DNA of 53,674 nucleotides, taken from assembly GCA_003550305.1 (NCBI GenBank), contig QKYT01000418.1, positions 28,986 through 82,659 on the forward strand, given 5' to 3'. Numbering within the stretch: position 1 is the first letter of the stretch; the number at the start of each line of letters is the position of its first letter. The notes beneath the pieces are model-generated. The model did no database searches, was not told the origin of the DNA, and saw only the letters and a list, made by a program, of their open reading frames with translations. This document shows positions 1 through 52,215 of this stretch, in pieces. Source of the DNA: Glomus cerebriforme. Lineage: Eukaryota; Glomeromycota; Glomeromycetes; Glomerales; Glomeraceae. The translations under genes and the position numbers were made by a program.

Positions 1-308
1 ATCTAATACATTTAAATTGAAATTAATAAAAATATAAGAATTTTATTGTTTTTATGTAATACTTTATTTAATTTTATAAATTTTATTTATTTTTTTTGTC
101 TTTGCTATAAAATAACCTCTACATGTAATATAGAATATATGAATTTAATTTTAGATTAAATTTTGAATTTGGGCAGAATAGGAATATTTCAGAATTTCAG
201 AAAATAATATCATTGGACTAAACAGTTTTTGGATGGTTTAGGTTTAGGATTTAATTGAAAGGTTTAGGTTTAGCCCGAATCATTATTATGAGTGATAATA
301 AGATGTCA
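1..308. other. 3' flank of the micro-exon gene, no gene seen
   Basis: AT-rich sequence downstream of the stop codon at 309-311, read on the minus strand. It would hold the 3' UTR of the peptide gene. No ORF, RNA gene or repeat is evident. Confidence 0.5.
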
Positions 309-1813
309 TTAGTAAACCTTTGAATCACAACCTATTTATTATTTAAAACAAATAAATCAATAATCAAATTTTCAAAAAAAAATAAATAATTATAATAATG
401 ATGAATGATACTTACAGGCTATTAGCGAAAAAAAAACAATCATCAATAAATAATATGTTAATATTTTCAAAAAGATAAATATTTAGTTGTTATAATAATG
501 ACAAATGATACTTACTTTTACCTATTTATTTAAAATAAAACAAAAAATGAAAATTAATAATTTTTTTTCAAACATAATATATAAATTAATAAGGGCAAAT
601 ACCCAATAAGAGCAAATGTATATCTTGTAGGAGTGCGACATCATTATTTATTGCCTCCAATTTGTCATTCCTGTGTCACACCCTCCGACTTTCATTTTTA
701 CTATTTATTCTAGGGACAGAATTTTTTCGAGATGTGAAATTCTATTTGTCACATGTTAAGCATAATTCCCTTAATTTTGGCCGAAATTTTTAATTCTGGC
801 CAGAATTTCTATTTTGGGCACTTGGATAACGTTATACAAACCAAAAGGCAATTTTGTTTCTCTAATTTAGGTTATACGCGACTTCCAAAAAAGGAAATTT
901 TCTTAATTTCGGCCGGAAATACCGAATTAGGAAAATTTCCAGCAATGTATAAATGTCTACTAGATCTAGATTTACCCTATTAATAATAATTATAAATGAT
1001 ACTTACTGCCTATTTATTAACATATAAAGAAATGAAATTAACAGTTAATATTTCCCCAAAAAAAACATAAAATAAAATATCAATTATACTTACAGGCTAT
1101 TATTTATTATTTAAACAAAAAAAAAATCAATAATCAATAAATGGTATATTAATATTTTCAAAACGATAAATATTTTAATAAAAATGACTTACTAATGATC
1201 CACACTATTTATTATTAAATGAATAAAAAATGAAAATTAACAATCAACATTTTTTTTTCCAAAAAATAATGGTTATAATAATGATAAATGATACGTACCA
1301 CCTATTTATTATTAAAATAAAATAAGAAAAAAAGAAAATTAATAATATTTTCCAAAAATAATAATGATGAGTATTAATTATAATAATACTTACAAACACC
1401 TATTTATTATTTAAATAAATAAATAAAAAACGAAAATTAATGGTCAACAATATATTCAAAAATAATAATGTAAATATTAATTAACAAATGATACTTACAG
1501 CCTATTTATTATTTAAAATAAATAATAAATAAATAAATAAAAAGAAAATTGAATAGTTAATATTTTTTTCAAAGAACAATAAATTAATAATAATAGTAAT
1601 GATAGTTACATCCTCCTATTTATTAAAATAAAACAAACCGAAAATTAACAGTTAATATTTTTTTTTCCAAAACAATAATAAATATTGATTTATTGTAAGA
1701 TATTTACTAGGATGGACAGCGTCAGATTCAAGTGATGTAGCGGGTTCAAGTGGCGCTGCTAAAGTGACGGCAACAAAAATAGTTAATAATAGAAGGAAAA
1801 TATTGAATTTCAT
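309..1813 (-). CDS. Secreted cysteine-rich peptide encoded by nine micro-exons
   Basis: Unrecognised family; the gene model is my own reading. Exon 1 (1813-1708) encodes a signal peptide (MKFNIFLLLL start, hydrophobic to about residue 19, ALA-type cleavage) and an acidic, Pro-containing spacer. It ends in phase 1 at a GTAAAT donor. Micro-exons follow at 1615-1610 (6 nt), 1501-1499 (3), 1399-1394 (6), 1301-1299 (3), 1204-1193 (12), 1096-1094 (3), 1009-1007 (3), 521-516 (6) and 418-416 (3), then a terminal exon 331-309 ending in TAA. Each micro-exon lies between an AATAG acceptor and a GTAAGT-like donor. All micro-exons are multiples of 3, so phase 1 is kept throughout. The spliced product is 57 aa, with a C-terminal CC-x-C-x5-C-x3-CC pattern (Cys 38, 39, 41, 47, 51, 52). 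Introns are 84-108 nt, except intron 8 (485 nt), which holds a MITE. An effector or signalling peptide is likely. The joined reading frame, six cysteines and stop argue against chance; no transcript has been seen. Confidence 0.75.
332..1707 (-). repeat. Tandem intron units (about 95 bp) of the micro-exon gene
   Basis: Read on the minus strand, each unit starts with GTAAGTATCATT or a close variant and ends with TTTAAATAATAAATAG. The 3-12 nt between consecutive units are the micro-exons. About ten related units are present, which implies growth by tandem duplication of an intron together with its small exon. Confidence 0.75.
586..983 (-). mobile_element. MITE inserted in intron 8 of the micro-exon gene
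   Basis: An approximately 400-bp insertion bounded by weak inverted ends (TTAATAAGGGCAAAT and its partner near 983). Its interior (TATTTATTCTAGGGACAGAA, TTCTGGCCAGAATT) is shared with the copies at 6572-6917 and 52021-52215. It explains why this intron is about 390 nt longer than its siblings. The short ORF inside it (753-983) is not considered a gene. Confidence 0.6.
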
Positions 1814-1910
1814 TTTTATTTTTTGGTTAATTGTTGCTGGTCTTTGTTGTTAATTTTATTAAATATTTGATTTTAACTTTTTCAAATTGTGTAGAGTCAA
1901 GAATATACTA

Positions 1911-1918
1911 TATTTATA
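1911..1918 (-). promoter_or_regulatory. Possible TATA box of the micro-exon gene
   Basis: TATAAATA on the minus strand, about 100 bp upstream of the ATG at 1813. The position suits a core promoter with a roughly 70-nt 5' UTR. In sequence this AT-rich the match is weak evidence. Confidence 0.35.
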
Positions 1919-2859
1919 AGAAAATTGAAATGGAATTTTTGACTATATACGAAAGGATCGTATGAATTCTTTATTCTATTCGGGATTTCGTACTAAACCC
2001 ATGATATTTAACTATTTTAATTACCGTATCCTTAACAGTAATTAATTCTTTCAATTCTTTCATAATGATTAATATTGATAAGAAAATTTTCTCTGAGGCA
2101 TAAGATTGTCTCCGAATGATCCCAAATTCGACTCATTCATTCATTTGGAGTTTCATTCGAACTGACAATCCTTGAATGTCATAATTTGGAATTAAAAAGG
2201 AAATTGATAAAAAAGGATAATAAGCCGTTATTATTTTATTATTATTATAACAATTTAGGCATTGAAAATGAAATCTATGGATATGTTTAATAATATAATT
2301 TTTATGCGCTCTAAGAACATTTGATCAGATAACGGATTACACTTCCGTGACGTAAGACGATCCATGCCTCATTTATTAGGGAAGCTGGTAATTTCGCTAA
2401 TAAGTCAGAATATGCTTGATTAAATAATGCCATTGTATATTTATACATTGTGCAAAAAAAAATTGGAATTCCATGAAATTCCAAAAACTATTATATTATT
2501 AACATAAAAAATCAAGGGACGCAAATGTGCCAATGATTTTATTATATTAATCTAACTGATTCTAGCAATACAAAATATTTTTTATATTTTTTACATTGTC
2601 AAAATCTACAGATAGTAAATTACTTATTATCTAGCAATAATACTCATTATGGCTATAATTACAATTGCGGTTGTGAAATAGAACCACTACTTTCTTCATA
2701 CGGTGGTGGTGGGGATTGATTTCTTCTTGCGATATTTTGCTCGCGAAGCCGATCGTATTTAGATACTAGAGAAAAGTAAAAATCTTTGATTAGTTACCTA
2801 CGGTCTATATATATATTTTTTCCGAACATGAAAAGAACGATGAGAGAGTTTAATCATAT
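1919..2859. other. Intergenic, no clear gene
   Basis: I see no convincing ORF or RNA gene. On the minus strand at about 2770-2665 there is a short open stretch rich in Pro and Ser (SPPPPYEESS) after a CTAG acceptor. It could be a tail exon of the neighbouring SANT-like gene, but I could not connect it in frame. Confidence 0.4.
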
Positions 2860-3235
2860 TTACCAGGCCTTTTCCAAAAATTCCTCATAATACTTCAGAC
2901 CGTTCTTGGTCTTTTTTCCCTTATCTTTACCATCGATATAATCTTTCATACGCTAATCGGAATAAAAATAAATTAATTTGATAACAGGTAATATATGGAG
3001 TATATTTTCTAAAGAAAGGTACGAGAGAGTTTCTACTTACTTTATGATCACGTTTAAGACTTTCAAACTTTTCCATACAATGTGCACCAGAATAACTTGT
3101 CCCAAACTGTAGGTTAATTTTCGTGGAGACCTGCTTCCAAAAATTTCTCTTTCCATTCCCAACAAGATCATAATATTTTTCGTTATAATCTTTACGGCTG
3201 TCAATTAAAACACGAAGTTGTTCGTCAGTCCACAT
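2860..3235 (-). CDS. Small SANT/Myb-like DNA-binding domain protein
   Basis: Two exons: 3235-3041, which begins MWTDEQLRVLI and ends with a GTAAGT donor, and 2952-2860 after a TTAG acceptor, reading on to a TAA stop. The predicted protein is 95 aa. The W-x3-QL-x-LID start, the central FWKQV and the CMEKFESLKRDHK segment resemble the trihelix/SANT-like domain common in fungal and transposon-derived DNA-binding proteins, where the three helices contact DNA. The tail (KDKGKKTKNGLKYYEEFLEK) is lysine-rich and aromatic, as in AM fungal members. It is probably a nuclear DNA-binding protein or one derived from a transposon. An alternative C terminus from a further exon is possible. Confidence 0.55.
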
Positions 3236-3429
3236 AGCTAAAAACTTTCTTATTTTTTTCTAGTTTGAAAAGAAGATCTGTCCAAGACCAAAGCTATTAT
3301 ATATCACATATTTTGCAAGTATGTAAGAAGAAAGATTGGTAGACCAAATCATTTCATATCGAATGTCTCTAATATGCAAAAACCGTTAAACAATGTTAAC
3401 GATCAGCCGAAATCACGTGAAGCAAGACC

Positions 3430-6571: not shown

Positions 6572-6917
6572 GAGGTGTCTAAACATAGGGTCATAATTCT
6601 GGCCAGAATTAAATGATCTGCAATAAAATTGCCTTTTTGAAATTTTCATATAACCAAAATTTGATTTTTGAAAAAAATAAAATTGCTTTTTTTGAATCGT
6701 ATAATGTAGTACAATATTCCAAAAAAAGGATACTCCGGCCGACATTATGAAATCTGGCCAAAATTAGATATGTGATGAATATGATGTGATGAATATGATT
6801 TCACACCTTGAAAAAATTCTGTTCCTAGAATAAATAGAAAAATGAAAACAGAAAGTGTGATACAGAATGATAAATTATTATATAGTAAAAATCACGTGAC
6901 TCATGTCTAGACACCCC
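6572..6917. mobile_element. MULE-like MITE, 346 bp
   Basis: The ends are imperfect inverted repeats: left GAGGTGTCTAAACATAGGG, right (reverse complement) GGGGTGTCTAGACATGAGT. The interior carries TTCTGGCCAGAATT and a TCACACCTTGAAAAAATTCT block shared with the copies at 586-983 and 52021-52215. No clear target duplication remains, so this is an older copy. It has no coding capacity. Confidence 0.6.
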
Positions 6918-26769: not shown

Positions 26770-27144
26770 CTACAAAAAAGCATTTTCATCAATGTATAAC
26801 TTAAACATTTCGTTAACAATGATTTCCTCTTGATTCTCTTGATTTTGATTTTGATTTACTTGAGCGCAATGATTATCGAAGATTATTGGTAAGTCTCCCA
26901 AACTTGGATTAGTTCTAAGAAGAGATATCAATTGCTTTATTTTCTGAGGATTCGAGAGATATTCATTCATTAATTTTTCATAGTGCGAATATAGGATAAA
27001 GGAATTTTTTATACCATTAGGTAAAAAATTCCAAAATCTGCCTGCTTTTATGGCTTTTTCCTGTGGGGATAAGGTAGGAAACTCTTCATCCAAAATTTTT
27101 TTGTAAAATTTACAAAAAATGATGTAGCAATTACTTGAAGCCAT
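26770..27144 (-). CDS. HMG-box protein (MATA-HMG-like)
   Basis: Intronless, 124 aa. Residues 5-65 read as a divergent HMG box: NCYIIFCKFYKKILDEEF, then LSPQEKAIKAGRFWNFL and IKNSFILYSHYEKLMNEYL. Aromatic Phe/Tyr/Trp residues occupy the usual helix 1-3 core positions. HMG boxes bind and bend DNA, so a nuclear regulatory role is expected. The tail is short and Gln/Asn-rich. The start at 27144 is preceded by a TATA-like element about 35 bp upstream. AM fungi carry large expanded sets of such genes; this one pairs with the gene at 30497. A role in mating cannot be inferred from sequence alone. Confidence 0.75.
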   Translation of the reverse strand: MASSNCYIIFCKFYKKILDEEFPTLSPQEKAIKAGRFWNFLPNGIKNSFILYSHYEKLMNEYLSNPQKIKQLISLLRTNPSLGDLPIIFDNHCAQVNQNQNQENQEEIIVNEMFKLYIDENAFL

Positions 27145-27177
27145 TTTTTTTGGTGACCAGTAAAGAACGTGTATTCG

Positions 27178-27186
27178 TTTTTATAG
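27178..27186 (-). promoter_or_regulatory. TATA box of the HMG gene
   Basis: TATAAAAAC on the minus strand, some 35-40 bp upstream of the ATG at 27144. It is one of the cleaner TATA matches in the window. Its position makes the overlapping ORF at 27131-27367 unlikely to be coding. Confidence 0.45.
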
Positions 27187-30464: not shown

Positions 30465-30496
30465 TCAAATAATTATCCAAAATCAATTAATTAATA

Positions 30497-30907
30497 ATGG
30501 GAAAATCAAAAAAAAAGCAACCCAACTCTAAAAAAAATAGTAAACCGCAATATGAAAAAAGAACGAAAAATCCGTGGCTTCTTTTCGTAAAAGATTTTGG
30601 TAAGGAGGATAATGAAAAAAGGCGTACGAAATTGTTAAAGAATGCTAAGCCTAAATGGGATTCAATGGAACCCAGCGATAAACGAAAATATTTCCAGGAA
30701 GCGGAATATTTAAAATATCGAAAACAAATAGAAGATACTCAACAATACGATTTAAACGTTAAGTTCCCACCAAAGGTATCACGCGGTGACGATCCATTCA
30801 TCATTGAAAATAATGATACTATGTCTGCCAAATTTTTGATAGATGAATTAAACCAAATTGTTACGAAAAATTATGATGAATTCATTAATGATATTAATGA
30901 GGATTAA
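30497..30907 (+). CDS. HMG-box protein (MATA-HMG-like), second gene
   Basis: Intronless, 136 aa. A basic, Lys-rich N terminus (MGKSKKKQPNSKKNSK) is followed by a divergent HMG box at about residues 24-80: KNPWLLFVKDFGKEDNEKRR, then LLKNAKPKWDSMEPSDKRKY and FQEAEYLKYRKQIED. The C terminus is acidic. The basic head suits nuclear targeting and DNA contact. It starts 33 bp after the third copy of a repeated promoter region and ends only 64 bp from the end of allantoinase on the other strand. Its precise targets are unknown. Confidence 0.7.
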   Translation: MGKSKKKQPNSKKNSKPQYEKRTKNPWLLFVKDFGKEDNEKRRTKLLKNAKPKWDSMEPSDKRKYFQEAEYLKYRKQIEDTQQYDLNVKFPPKVSRGDDPFIIENNDTMSAKFLIDELNQIVTKNYDEFINDINED

Positions 30908-30971: not shown

Positions 30972-32667
30972 TTAAACCAATAGTTCACCATAAGGAATTT
31001 CAATAAGTCCACCGTTACTTTTATCGTATACAATATTCCCTCTAACTATAGATTTATTTACAACCCCAAAAATATGCTTACCAAGATAAGGAGTTACTTT
31101 GTTCTTAAAATGAATAAGATCGTTTATGACCTATATGTTTTTTTTAAATATTTAAATTAATTTTATGATTTTTATGATTTTTATTATTTTGTGATTTTAT
31201 GATTTTTATGATTTTTATTATTTTATGATTTTTATGATTTTATGATTTTTATGATTTTTATGATTTTATTATTTTATGATTTTTATGATTTTATGATTTT
31301 ATAAATAAAATATATGTTTTACCTCAAATTTTTCTTCGGGATCCCAAATTACAAAATCGGCATCAAATCCTACTTTAATTTCGCCTTTTCTATCATGTAA
31401 TCCAACTTGTTTAGAAGTATTCTTTGATAACCAAGTTGATAATTGTTTAAAACTGAATTTATACAATAATTTCAGTTATAATCACTTTTTAAAAGTTTTA
31501 AACAATTTTATCATTAATTACCTAACACCTCTGCTTTTAGCTTCAGTCCATAGTATAGGTAATCCAAATTGTAACGTTGAAACACCACCCCAAGCTTTCA
31601 TGAAATCTCTTTCTTCCTCTCTATCATTAAATTTCTTTAGATCTGCCGTGCAAGGTGAATGATCTGACACAACATAATCAATAGTTCCATCCAATAAAGC
31701 CTTTTTTTTCATCAAAAAAAAAAATCATTTTTTTTTGTTGTTCTTTCCTCTTCCCCTAAAAAAGAAGTAAAAACCTTTTACATACCTGCCAAAGTTTTTC
31801 CCGATTGCTTTCTTCACGAATAGGAGGACAACATTTAAATTCGGTTTTACCATTAGGTATTTTTTCGGCCGACAAACATAAGTAATGAAAACAAGTTTCC
31901 ACCGTCAAATTAATTCCATCAGATTTAGCTTGTTGAATTAATGGTATAGCATCTGAAGCAGATAAATGTACAATATGGGATCTAACCCTATTTTTATATT
32001 GTTTAGTAAGATTTATTATTAACGATATAGCATTTAATTCAAGTGATTGTGGTCTACTCAATAAAAATTTTTCGTAATTATTAGGAGGTATTTGTTCATA
32101 ATACTCTTTTAATTCTGTTTCAAGAATATTAGTATTATTTCCTTCCATTTCCGCATGAAACATTAAAAATGAATCTTGTCCCTACGTTAAAAAAAAAAAT
32201 TATATAAAATTTGTAAAATTTTTTTTTTTAATTTAATTTAATAATAATTTATTACCTGTAAATTTTCAAAAGCATTTCGAACATCTTTTTCATTTACACA
32301 AGGAAATTCATCAACTCCGCTCTCGATCAAAAAACATTTGAATCCTTTTACACCCGCTTTTATTAATGGAACCAAATCATCCTGAAAAAAAAAAAATGTT
32401 AAAAGATAATCCCAAAAATAAAATTATTTAATTTAACATGAACCTGATTTCCTGGAATTACTCCACCAAAAAATCCGACATCTACCCAACATTTCCCTTT
32501 TGCAGCATTAATTTTTTCTTGTAAATTATTAACGTTAGTAGTAGGAGGGATTGAATTTAATGGCATGTCAATTACGGTTGTTACACCACCTAATATATTT
32601 GTTAGAAAAAAAGATTTACATAATTCATCAAATTATCCTGAGTTGAGAATTTCCTTTTTTTTAAAAA

Positions 32668-32698
<31 letters not shown>

Positions 32699-33020
32699 TT
32701 TGTTTGTTTGTAAAAAGTTTTACTGATAATTTACCAGCTGCAGCAGCTTTTGTCCCGGTTTCAAATCCTTCCCAATGAGTTCTACCAGGTTCATTTAAAT
32801 GTACATGAGCATCAATTAAACCAGGCATAACAATATTCTCTCCAACATCCAAAAATTGTTGGTTCTGATCATTATAATCATTAATAGATGATTTATAAGG
32901 ATGAATTTTAATGATTTTTCCCGTATTCTTATCAATTTCAATTGTACCAGGTGTAGGTTCAATTGAATCTGGTAAAATAATTCGAGTACTACTAATAATC
33001 AATAAATTATTATTTTCCAT
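30972..33020 (-). CDS. DAL1: Allantoinase
   Basis: Hydrolyses allantoin to allantoate in purine degradation, releasing nitrogen for growth. Seven exons join cleanly: 33020-32735, 32589-32444, 32381-32256, 32181-31786, 31700-31522, 31452-31323 and 31130-30972, giving 473 aa, the usual size. The amidohydrolase metal ligands are present: H72 and H74 (DAHVHLNE), the carboxylated Lys about K159 (GVKGFKCF), H195 (MFHAEM), H258 (RSHIVHLS) and D331 (VVSDHSPC). The end (HKVTPYLG-like [16 protein letters not shown], then VRGNIVYD) closes the barrel. All introns are short and AT-rich. Intron 4 has a poor acceptor (AAAAAAAAG) and intron 2 a weak GTTCAT donor. Intron 6 holds a tandem repeat. A complete, functional enzyme is expected. 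The symbol follows the yeast orthologue. Confidence 0.93.
31145..31305. repeat. ATGATTTTT minisatellite in allantoinase intron 6
   Basis: Units of TTTTATGATTTTTATGATT repeat imperfectly across the intron. This is a simple tandem repeat likely to vary in length between isolates. On the coding strand it is purine-rich (AAAATCATAAAAATCAT). Confidence 0.85.
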
Positions 33021-52020: not shown

Positions 52021-52215
52021 GGTACGTCTAAAGTAGAGCAGAATCACGTGATTTTGTAAAATTTTTGGCCAGAATTATGCAAATAACAGGTGATAAATAG
52101 GATTTCACTTATCGAAAAAATTTTAAGTCCCTAGAATACTTAGAAAAAATGAAAAATGAAGATGTGATGCAAATTTACTATGATCATGTGATTCTACTCT
52201 ACTTTAGACGCCTCT
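52021..52215. mobile_element. MULE-like MITE, 195 bp, 9-bp target duplication
   Basis: Ends GGTACGTCTAAAGTAGAGCA and, read inward, AGAGGCGTCTAAAGTAGAGT are inverted repeats. The direct repeat CATATATAG flanks both sides (52012-52020, 52216-52224). A 9-bp duplication suits the Mutator-like superfamily. The interior (TTTGGCCAGAATTATG, CCCTAGAATAC) ties it to the copies at 586-983 and 6572-6917. This is the best-preserved and youngest copy. Confidence 0.8.

Follow-up and report, generated by a model that had tools for sequence, protein, structure and literature searches.

A predicted micro-exon gene for a cysteine-rich, secreted-type peptide in Glomus cerebriforme, present in two copies

A small region of the Glomus cerebriforme genome most probably harbors a protein-coding gene built with micro-exons, which is one of two dispersed copies. 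The gene lies in what we term the window, that is, the whole stretch of DNA analyzed here (53,674 nucleotides of contig QKYT01000418.1, positions 28,986 to 82,659). On the minus strand of the window, from 1813 to 309, a signal-peptide-like exon is followed by nine micro-exons of 6, 3, 6, 3, 12, 3, 3, 6 and 3 nt in that order, all in a single phase, and by a last exon of 23 nt. The original prediction, made from the sequence alone, had proposed just such an arrangement (a signal-peptide-like exon, nine exons of 3-12 nt of which five have only 3 nt, and a terminal exon), and each of these elements was found in its place. The accompanying reading of the locus as a micro-exon gene is supported by the presence on contig C250 of a copy with the same exons, phase and six cysteines, and by fast change within the micro-exons that is entirely nonsynonymous.

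Gene structure and the predicted peptide

The ATG at 1813, which lies within AAAAATAAAAATGAAATTC, opens a frame of 35 codons, and the donor of exon 1, GTAAAT, stands one base past this frame. The N-terminus has, as judged by eye, the look of a signal peptide, and it resembles the N-terminus of another Cys-rich gene of this genome (on contig C1073). The micro-exons that follow are bordered by ..AATAG upstream and by GTAAGT downstream (with the donor variants GTAACT and GTACGT), each of the nine internal exons opens at codon position 2; at several of the exon junctions, cysteine codons are split after T. In both copies, 9/9 internal exons have a length of 3-12 nt and are multiples of three. The introns measure 84-108 nt with the exception of intron 8, which carries an insert (Table 1); fragments resembling this insert occur at 6784-6876 and 52072-52154 of the window, and on C250.

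When the exons are conceptually joined, they give a 57-residue peptide with the cysteine frame CC-x-C-x5-C-x3-CC and a stop, the C-terminal end of which reads RGCCVCVWIITCSKTCCDSKVY in the window copy; this is the frame first predicted, reproduced here by the join and kept in the C250 copy. With six cysteines among its 57 residues, the product fits the size and cysteine limits set for AM-fungal small cysteine-rich secreted (SCR) proteins (<200 aa, at least 2 Cys and at least 3% Cys; PMC5293756). Neither a Pfam match nor a solved-structure match was found for the joined peptides, and a comparison of the mature peptide with solved chains gave no sequence match at E values up to 10. Conotoxins have the cysteine order CC-C-C-CC, together with a conserved signal/pro part and a hypervariable mature part; that the window peptide has the same cysteine order is regarded as a lead only.

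Table 1. Features of the predicted micro-exon gene and its surroundings (positions in the window; "copy" refers to the gene on C250)
Feature	Position	Strand	Basis or remark
Exon 1, signal-peptide-like stretch and pro-region, 106 nt	1708..1813	-	ends after codon position 1; copy differs at 3/106
Intron 1, 92 nt, first of ten mutually similar introns	1616..1707	-	join, intron comparison
Micro-exon 2, GAGGAT	1610..1615	-	join and blind scan
Micro-exon 3, GCT	1499..1501	-	join and blind scan
Micro-exon 4, GTGTTT (copy GTTTTT)	1394..1399	-	join, copy alignment, blind scan
Micro-exon 5, GTG	1299..1301	-	join and blind scan
Micro-exon 6, TGTGGATCATTA (copy TGGGGGGCGTTA)	1193..1204	-	join, copy alignment, blind scan
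Micro-exon 7, CCT	1094..1096	-	join and blind scan
Micro-exon 8, GCA (copy GCC)	1007..1009	-	join, copy alignment, blind scan
Insert of ~400 nt in intron 8, MITE-like	585..986	-	absent from copy; imperfect inverted ends; TTATTAAT repeat on both sides
Micro-exon 9, GTAAAA (copy TTGAAA)	516..521	-	join, copy alignment, blind scan
Micro-exon 10, CCT (copy TCT)	416..418	-	join, copy alignment, blind scan
Terminal exon 11 with stop codon	309..331	-	join; copy has two terminal-exon versions
Segment common to window and contig C250, about 3.1 kb	286..3389		colinear similarity
Co-duplicated Myb/SANT-like gene, first coding exon, 195 nt	3041..3235	-	divergence control

Scans for micro-exons and the search for relatives

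The AATAG and GTAAGT-like exon borders of the original prediction were recovered by a blind scan for AATAG followed by 0-40 nt and GTANST, in which length and frame were left free: on the minus strand of window positions 1-2100, the scan returned exactly the nine micro-exons, all of them multiples of 3. In a background composed of the window after 3500 and six 10-kb loci, with both strands included (220,348 strand-bases), the same pattern was matched 22 times and at most twice per 1.6 kb; eight of these 22 matches had 15 nt or less, and two of the eight were multiples of 3. Order-3 simulations of the region (n=2,000) reached a maximum of 4 matches of 15 nt or less, as against the 9 real ones. 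At the locus of the copy (6.5 kb), the blind scan again picked out the nine micro-exons and added two pieces, one of 3 nt situated 40 nt past exon 11 and one of 32 nt, unrelated and much further downstream.

Across the whole assembly (112.5 Mb in 1,117 contigs) the strict pattern AATAAATAG-N3..24-GTAAGT is not enriched, with 40 matches vs 47 in the reversed control, and since the real count is below that of the control, a single match to the strict motif is uninformative. Eleven of the 40 matches lie in the two genes (5 in the window gene and 6 in the copy), and nowhere else in the genome do two of them fall within 2 kb, so that no further cluster is revealed by this pattern, which is blind to micro-exon genes using other splice-site letters. 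Of 64 loci collected, 25 include or overlap one or other of the two genes; the remaining 39 were scanned, and clusters of at least 4 micro-exons were absent from all of them. Loci around motif matches came from C235, C688, C291, C424, C138, C363, C890 and C964. When the window and nine loci were scanned with a looser pattern, the two genes were returned together with four groups of 3-4 pieces that are mostly longer and mutually unlike.

A search of the genome with the exon-1 protein led to three places, namely the window gene, the C250 copy and C1073. Exon 1 of the C250 copy is 97% identical to that of the window gene, and all 11 exons recur in the copy in an unchanged phase, as do the six cysteines in their frame; the join of the copy reads ...HPRGCCFCVGGVTCLEICCPDAN. 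Beyond the common 3.1-kb segment, only scattered repeat-like matches were found (80 kb and 50 kb compared), and for this reason the copies look like dispersed duplicates. The alternative that they represent haplotigs or a duplicate assembly is unsupported, as the colinear similarity is confined to ~3.1 kb. A Myb/SANT-like gene (window 2700-3235, a PF13837 match) was duplicated along with the micro-exon gene, and its predicted ends differ between the two copies.

The gene on C1073 was rejected as a micro-exon relative, being a single-frame Cys-rich gene of weak similarity (E 0.016) without micro-exons. At C1073:19364-19648 it specifies a single-frame protein of 95 aa, apparently with two internal Cys repeats, the N-terminus of which is 62% alike over 26 residues, a hint that the signal exon may be shared or have been shuffled; a search with this protein gave one further weak place, on C667 (E 0.16, one internal stop). 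With a 1.1-kb DNA query, the sole place outside the two copies was on C809, and on reading this was low-complexity sequence.

The window as a whole has a GC content of 24% and holds an F-box gene. Two HMG-box-like frames, at 26770-27180 and 30491-30907, are below the Pfam cut-off; HMG expansions are found in AM fungi. On the minus strand at 31756-33020 are amidohydrolase-like frames, one of them below the Pfam cut-off, which resemble an intron-split allantoinase. The low GC content, the F-box gene, the Myb/SANT-like gene and the HMG-box-like frames accord with an AM fungus. In the genome at large, the chitin synthase profile has 23 matches, five of them near the full profile; this is weak evidence on the host, as the profile also matches 4/14 bacterial control genomes. 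The assembly's only universal LSU primer site is located at C1033:108490, and the match to the LSU rRNA family there extends over just 77 nt. The FLR4 primer has no match in the assembly, which, given that single LSU site, counts neither for nor against an AM fungus.

Divergence of the two copies and competing explanations

Since the exons were proposed ahead of the discovery of the copy, the copy serves as an independent test of them; the comparison is one of two sequences from one genome, and its strength rests on the contrast with the introns. Between the copies, 17 of 928 intron sites and 9 of 45 micro-exon sites are substituted (Fisher P = 7.4e-7), which places the introns 1.8% apart and the micro-exons 20% apart. 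Elsewhere we observe 5 substitutions in the 286 nt upstream, 3 in the 106 nt of exon 1 (two of the three synonymous) and 4/195 in the exon of the Myb/SANT-like neighbor, while the last exon aligns poorly, with 3/17 sites different and 3 gaps. The splice sites are substituted at 1/60 positions in the donor hexamers and at 1/90 in the last 9 intron bases. Every one of the nine micro-exon substitutions (9/9) is amino-acid changing, and all six cysteines are kept; one further change, a synonymous one, affects a cysteine codon with which the last exon begins.

To allow for clustered changes, nine intron windows of the micro-exon sizes were resampled in 200,000 draws. Nine substitutions were reached in 0/200,000 draws, and five changed windows of the nine in 76/200,000, or in 1,877/200,000 when indel columns were counted as changes. 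There are 11 indels in the introns and none in the micro-exons, for which the expected number is itself no more than about 0.5. Across codons 36-52, 1 synonymous change in 10.3 sites (dS 0.097) stands against a dN of 0.22, a ratio of only ~2.3 drawn from few sites, and the probability that ten random changes would keep all Cys without a stop is 0.011, which is suggestive only. As exons predicted in error should change at the intron rate, we consider the micro-exons to be probably real; the contrast in rate is the mark of putatively translated, diversifying exons.

Of the competing explanations, the one that survives best accepts a real micro-exon gene and supposes that the window copy is decaying, such that only the other copy works. 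The ~400-nt insert in intron 8 of the window copy would fit such a course, as would the difference in 3' ends and the extra cassette of the other copy. However, the insert is intronic, and the window copy retains an intact frame, its stop, its six cysteines and every splice site; we consider its decay to be improbable. It is less probable still that the locus is a ~95-bp tandem repeat with splice-like ends arising by chance, in which case the real product would be a short unspliced frame and nothing downstream would be translated. The introns are indeed mutual repeats, and unspliced frames of 53 and 56 residues do run from the same ATG in the two copies; the tails of these frames, however, end differently in the copies and are without the cysteine array, and whereas neutral repeats should give equal exon and intron columns, the changes concentrate in the predicted exons, alter amino acids and spare the cysteines. 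Last, we hold it very unlikely that the introns are removed in a sequential or nested manner, of which recursive splicing and stwintrons are known modes, with the 3-12 nt pieces as splicing intermediates that the final mRNA would lack: the window gene has a donor-like exon 9 (GTAAAA), as in a zero-length exon, but the copy has TTGAAA at this position, and lost pieces would be without reason to keep cysteines and frame or to show a raised nonsynonymous rate.

Growth of the array, known parallels and meaning

Returning to the micro-exon gene as the preferred reading, the ten introns of the copy are 60-91% alike, and follow a common plan with a GTAAGTATCATT..TCATTATTAT start in most, a T-/A-rich middle and an (AATA)ATAAATAG-like end. 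A 24-nt 5' intron motif is found exactly in 6 places genome-wide, all six in these two genes; with up to 1 mismatch there are 11 places, 10 of them in the two genes, and the 41 places with 2-3 mismatches are all outside. Up to 3 mismatches, the motif thus numbers 52 in all vs 16 in the reversed control, and the 42 outside the genes exceed this control, many of these weaker matches beginning with a donor-like GTAAGT. Introner-type introns are near-identical introns scattered through a genome; dispersed introner elements are unsupported here, the exact motif being confined to the two genes, with the 42 weaker matches elsewhere. Because the introns are mutually similar and the exact motif occurs only in the two genes, intron-exon units were probably duplicated locally and in tandem to build up the array, which is a better fit than a genome-wide spread of introns.

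In the copy, the 3' cassette is duplicated (C250:162911-162800), so that a further small exon, TAT at 162911-162909, and another terminal exon, from 162830, are present. Introns 10 and 10b of the copy differ at 2/75 aligned sites, besides gaps, and the duplication of the cassette is apparently a recent addition to the copy, in which the exon parts already differ. A join of exons 9, 10 and 11a ends in ..LEICCPDAN, and one of 9, 10b and 12 in ..LEICCDPKVLLMTSYYHS; the cysteine frame is kept in both, and the use of both 10 and 10b would make one loop longer by a residue. We infer that the two cassettes may be used as alternatives.

It is reasonable to postulate that a minus-strand transcript would be spliced via ten short introns one after another, probably by intron definition, since there is hardly room on a 3-nt exon for two splicing complexes at the same time; that serial 3-nt exons are hard to splice was counted against the micro-exon gene. 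The internal exons, as phase-uniform multiples of three, could be joined or skipped with the frame intact. The product would be a 57-residue prepropeptide from which the signal peptide is removed, perhaps with a further cleavage near HPR, leaving a mature peptide of ~20 residues with six cysteines, presumably in three disulfides, and with inter-cysteine loops that are probably under diversifying selection. By computation over 512 combinations, exon skipping in the window copy could give 480 distinct in-frame peptides without a premature stop; only 6/512 combinations keep all six cysteines, and so small a number suggests full inclusion to be the main product. A more far-reaching reading, to which we give tentative and rather limited credence, is that of a generator of peptide diversity, in which frame-neutral exons of 3-12 nt, bearing the cysteines and the loop residues, would be varied through exon-internal change, unit duplication and combinatorial exon choice. 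The likeliest role would be that of a secreted effector-like or recognition peptide engaged in an arms race with a host, a microbe or a competitor.

Schistosome micro-exon genes (MEGs), aphid bicycle genes and AM-fungal SP7-type effectors had been put forward as parallels; the first two are alike in architecture, and SP7, with its hydrophilic repeats and NLS, is not. In the portions of the published accounts used here, schistosome MEGs have secreted products and many tiny exons, mostly multiples of three, and lie on several chromosomes, with exons mostly of 15 bp (range given as 6-81 in the text and 3-81 in the abstract) and introns of 0.1-5 kb, and dN/dS work on meg genes is mentioned (PMC10526429). 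The present gene shares with them a secreted-type product (here predicted), tiny exons in threes and dispersed genes, but with its cysteine frame, exons of 3-12 nt and introns of ~90 nt, as against exons of 15 bp and introns of 0.1-5 kb, it falls outside the MEG class as there described. Aphid bicycle genes are reported to have many micro-exons (on average ~17 exons), internal exons that almost all begin at codon position 2, and fast-evolving products that are putative plant effectors (PMC9168663). The internal exons of the window gene start at the same codon position (9/9), in a gene of 11 exons with ~20 mature residues, compared with ~17 exons in the insects. The aphid bicycle proteins are larger. 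Neither the MEG nor the bicycle description, in the portions used, includes introns as short as these or 3-nt exons in series.

Among AM-fungal proteins, the SCR proteins are alike in size and cysteine content, and gene architecture is untreated in the main texts of the two accounts, where exon and intron have 0 occurrences (PMC5293756, PMC4746824). The AGL surface proteins are described, in the portion of the source used, as having 1-2 introns close to the signal sequence, with a higher conservation than that of the region coding for the mature protein (PMC8786786). The window gene likewise has an intron beside the putative signal-sequence cleavage site and introns more conserved than the mature coding sequence; the AGL genes differ in having one or two introns only, and in belonging to another protein class with a GPI-anchor signal. 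SP7-like effectors have a signal peptide, a conserved intron before the first repeat and dispersed paralogues (PMC11333574), but consist of hydrophilic imperfect repeats, often with an NLS, with no cysteine frame described in the part of that source used, whereas the 57 residues here are without visible repeats. No fungal or AM-fungal micro-exon gene appeared among the listed titles and abstract openings of the open-licence literature searched. If the present reading is true, this would be, within that scope, the first such micro-exon gene in a fungus, and its run of 3-nt exons would be unusually long; an independent origin of micro-exon secreted genes in schistosomes, aphids and fungi would be suggested.

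Five 3-nt exons in one small gene constitute a hard test of spliceosomal exon definition, and the two copies allow the growth and diversification of a micro-exon array to be studied. The faster evolution of the micro-exons than of the surrounding introns suggests, at the level of the two sequences compared, an arms race run through the micro-exons. Standard annotation and read mapping will probably miss genes of this kind, and the secretomes of such fungi may as a result lack their fastest-evolving peptides.
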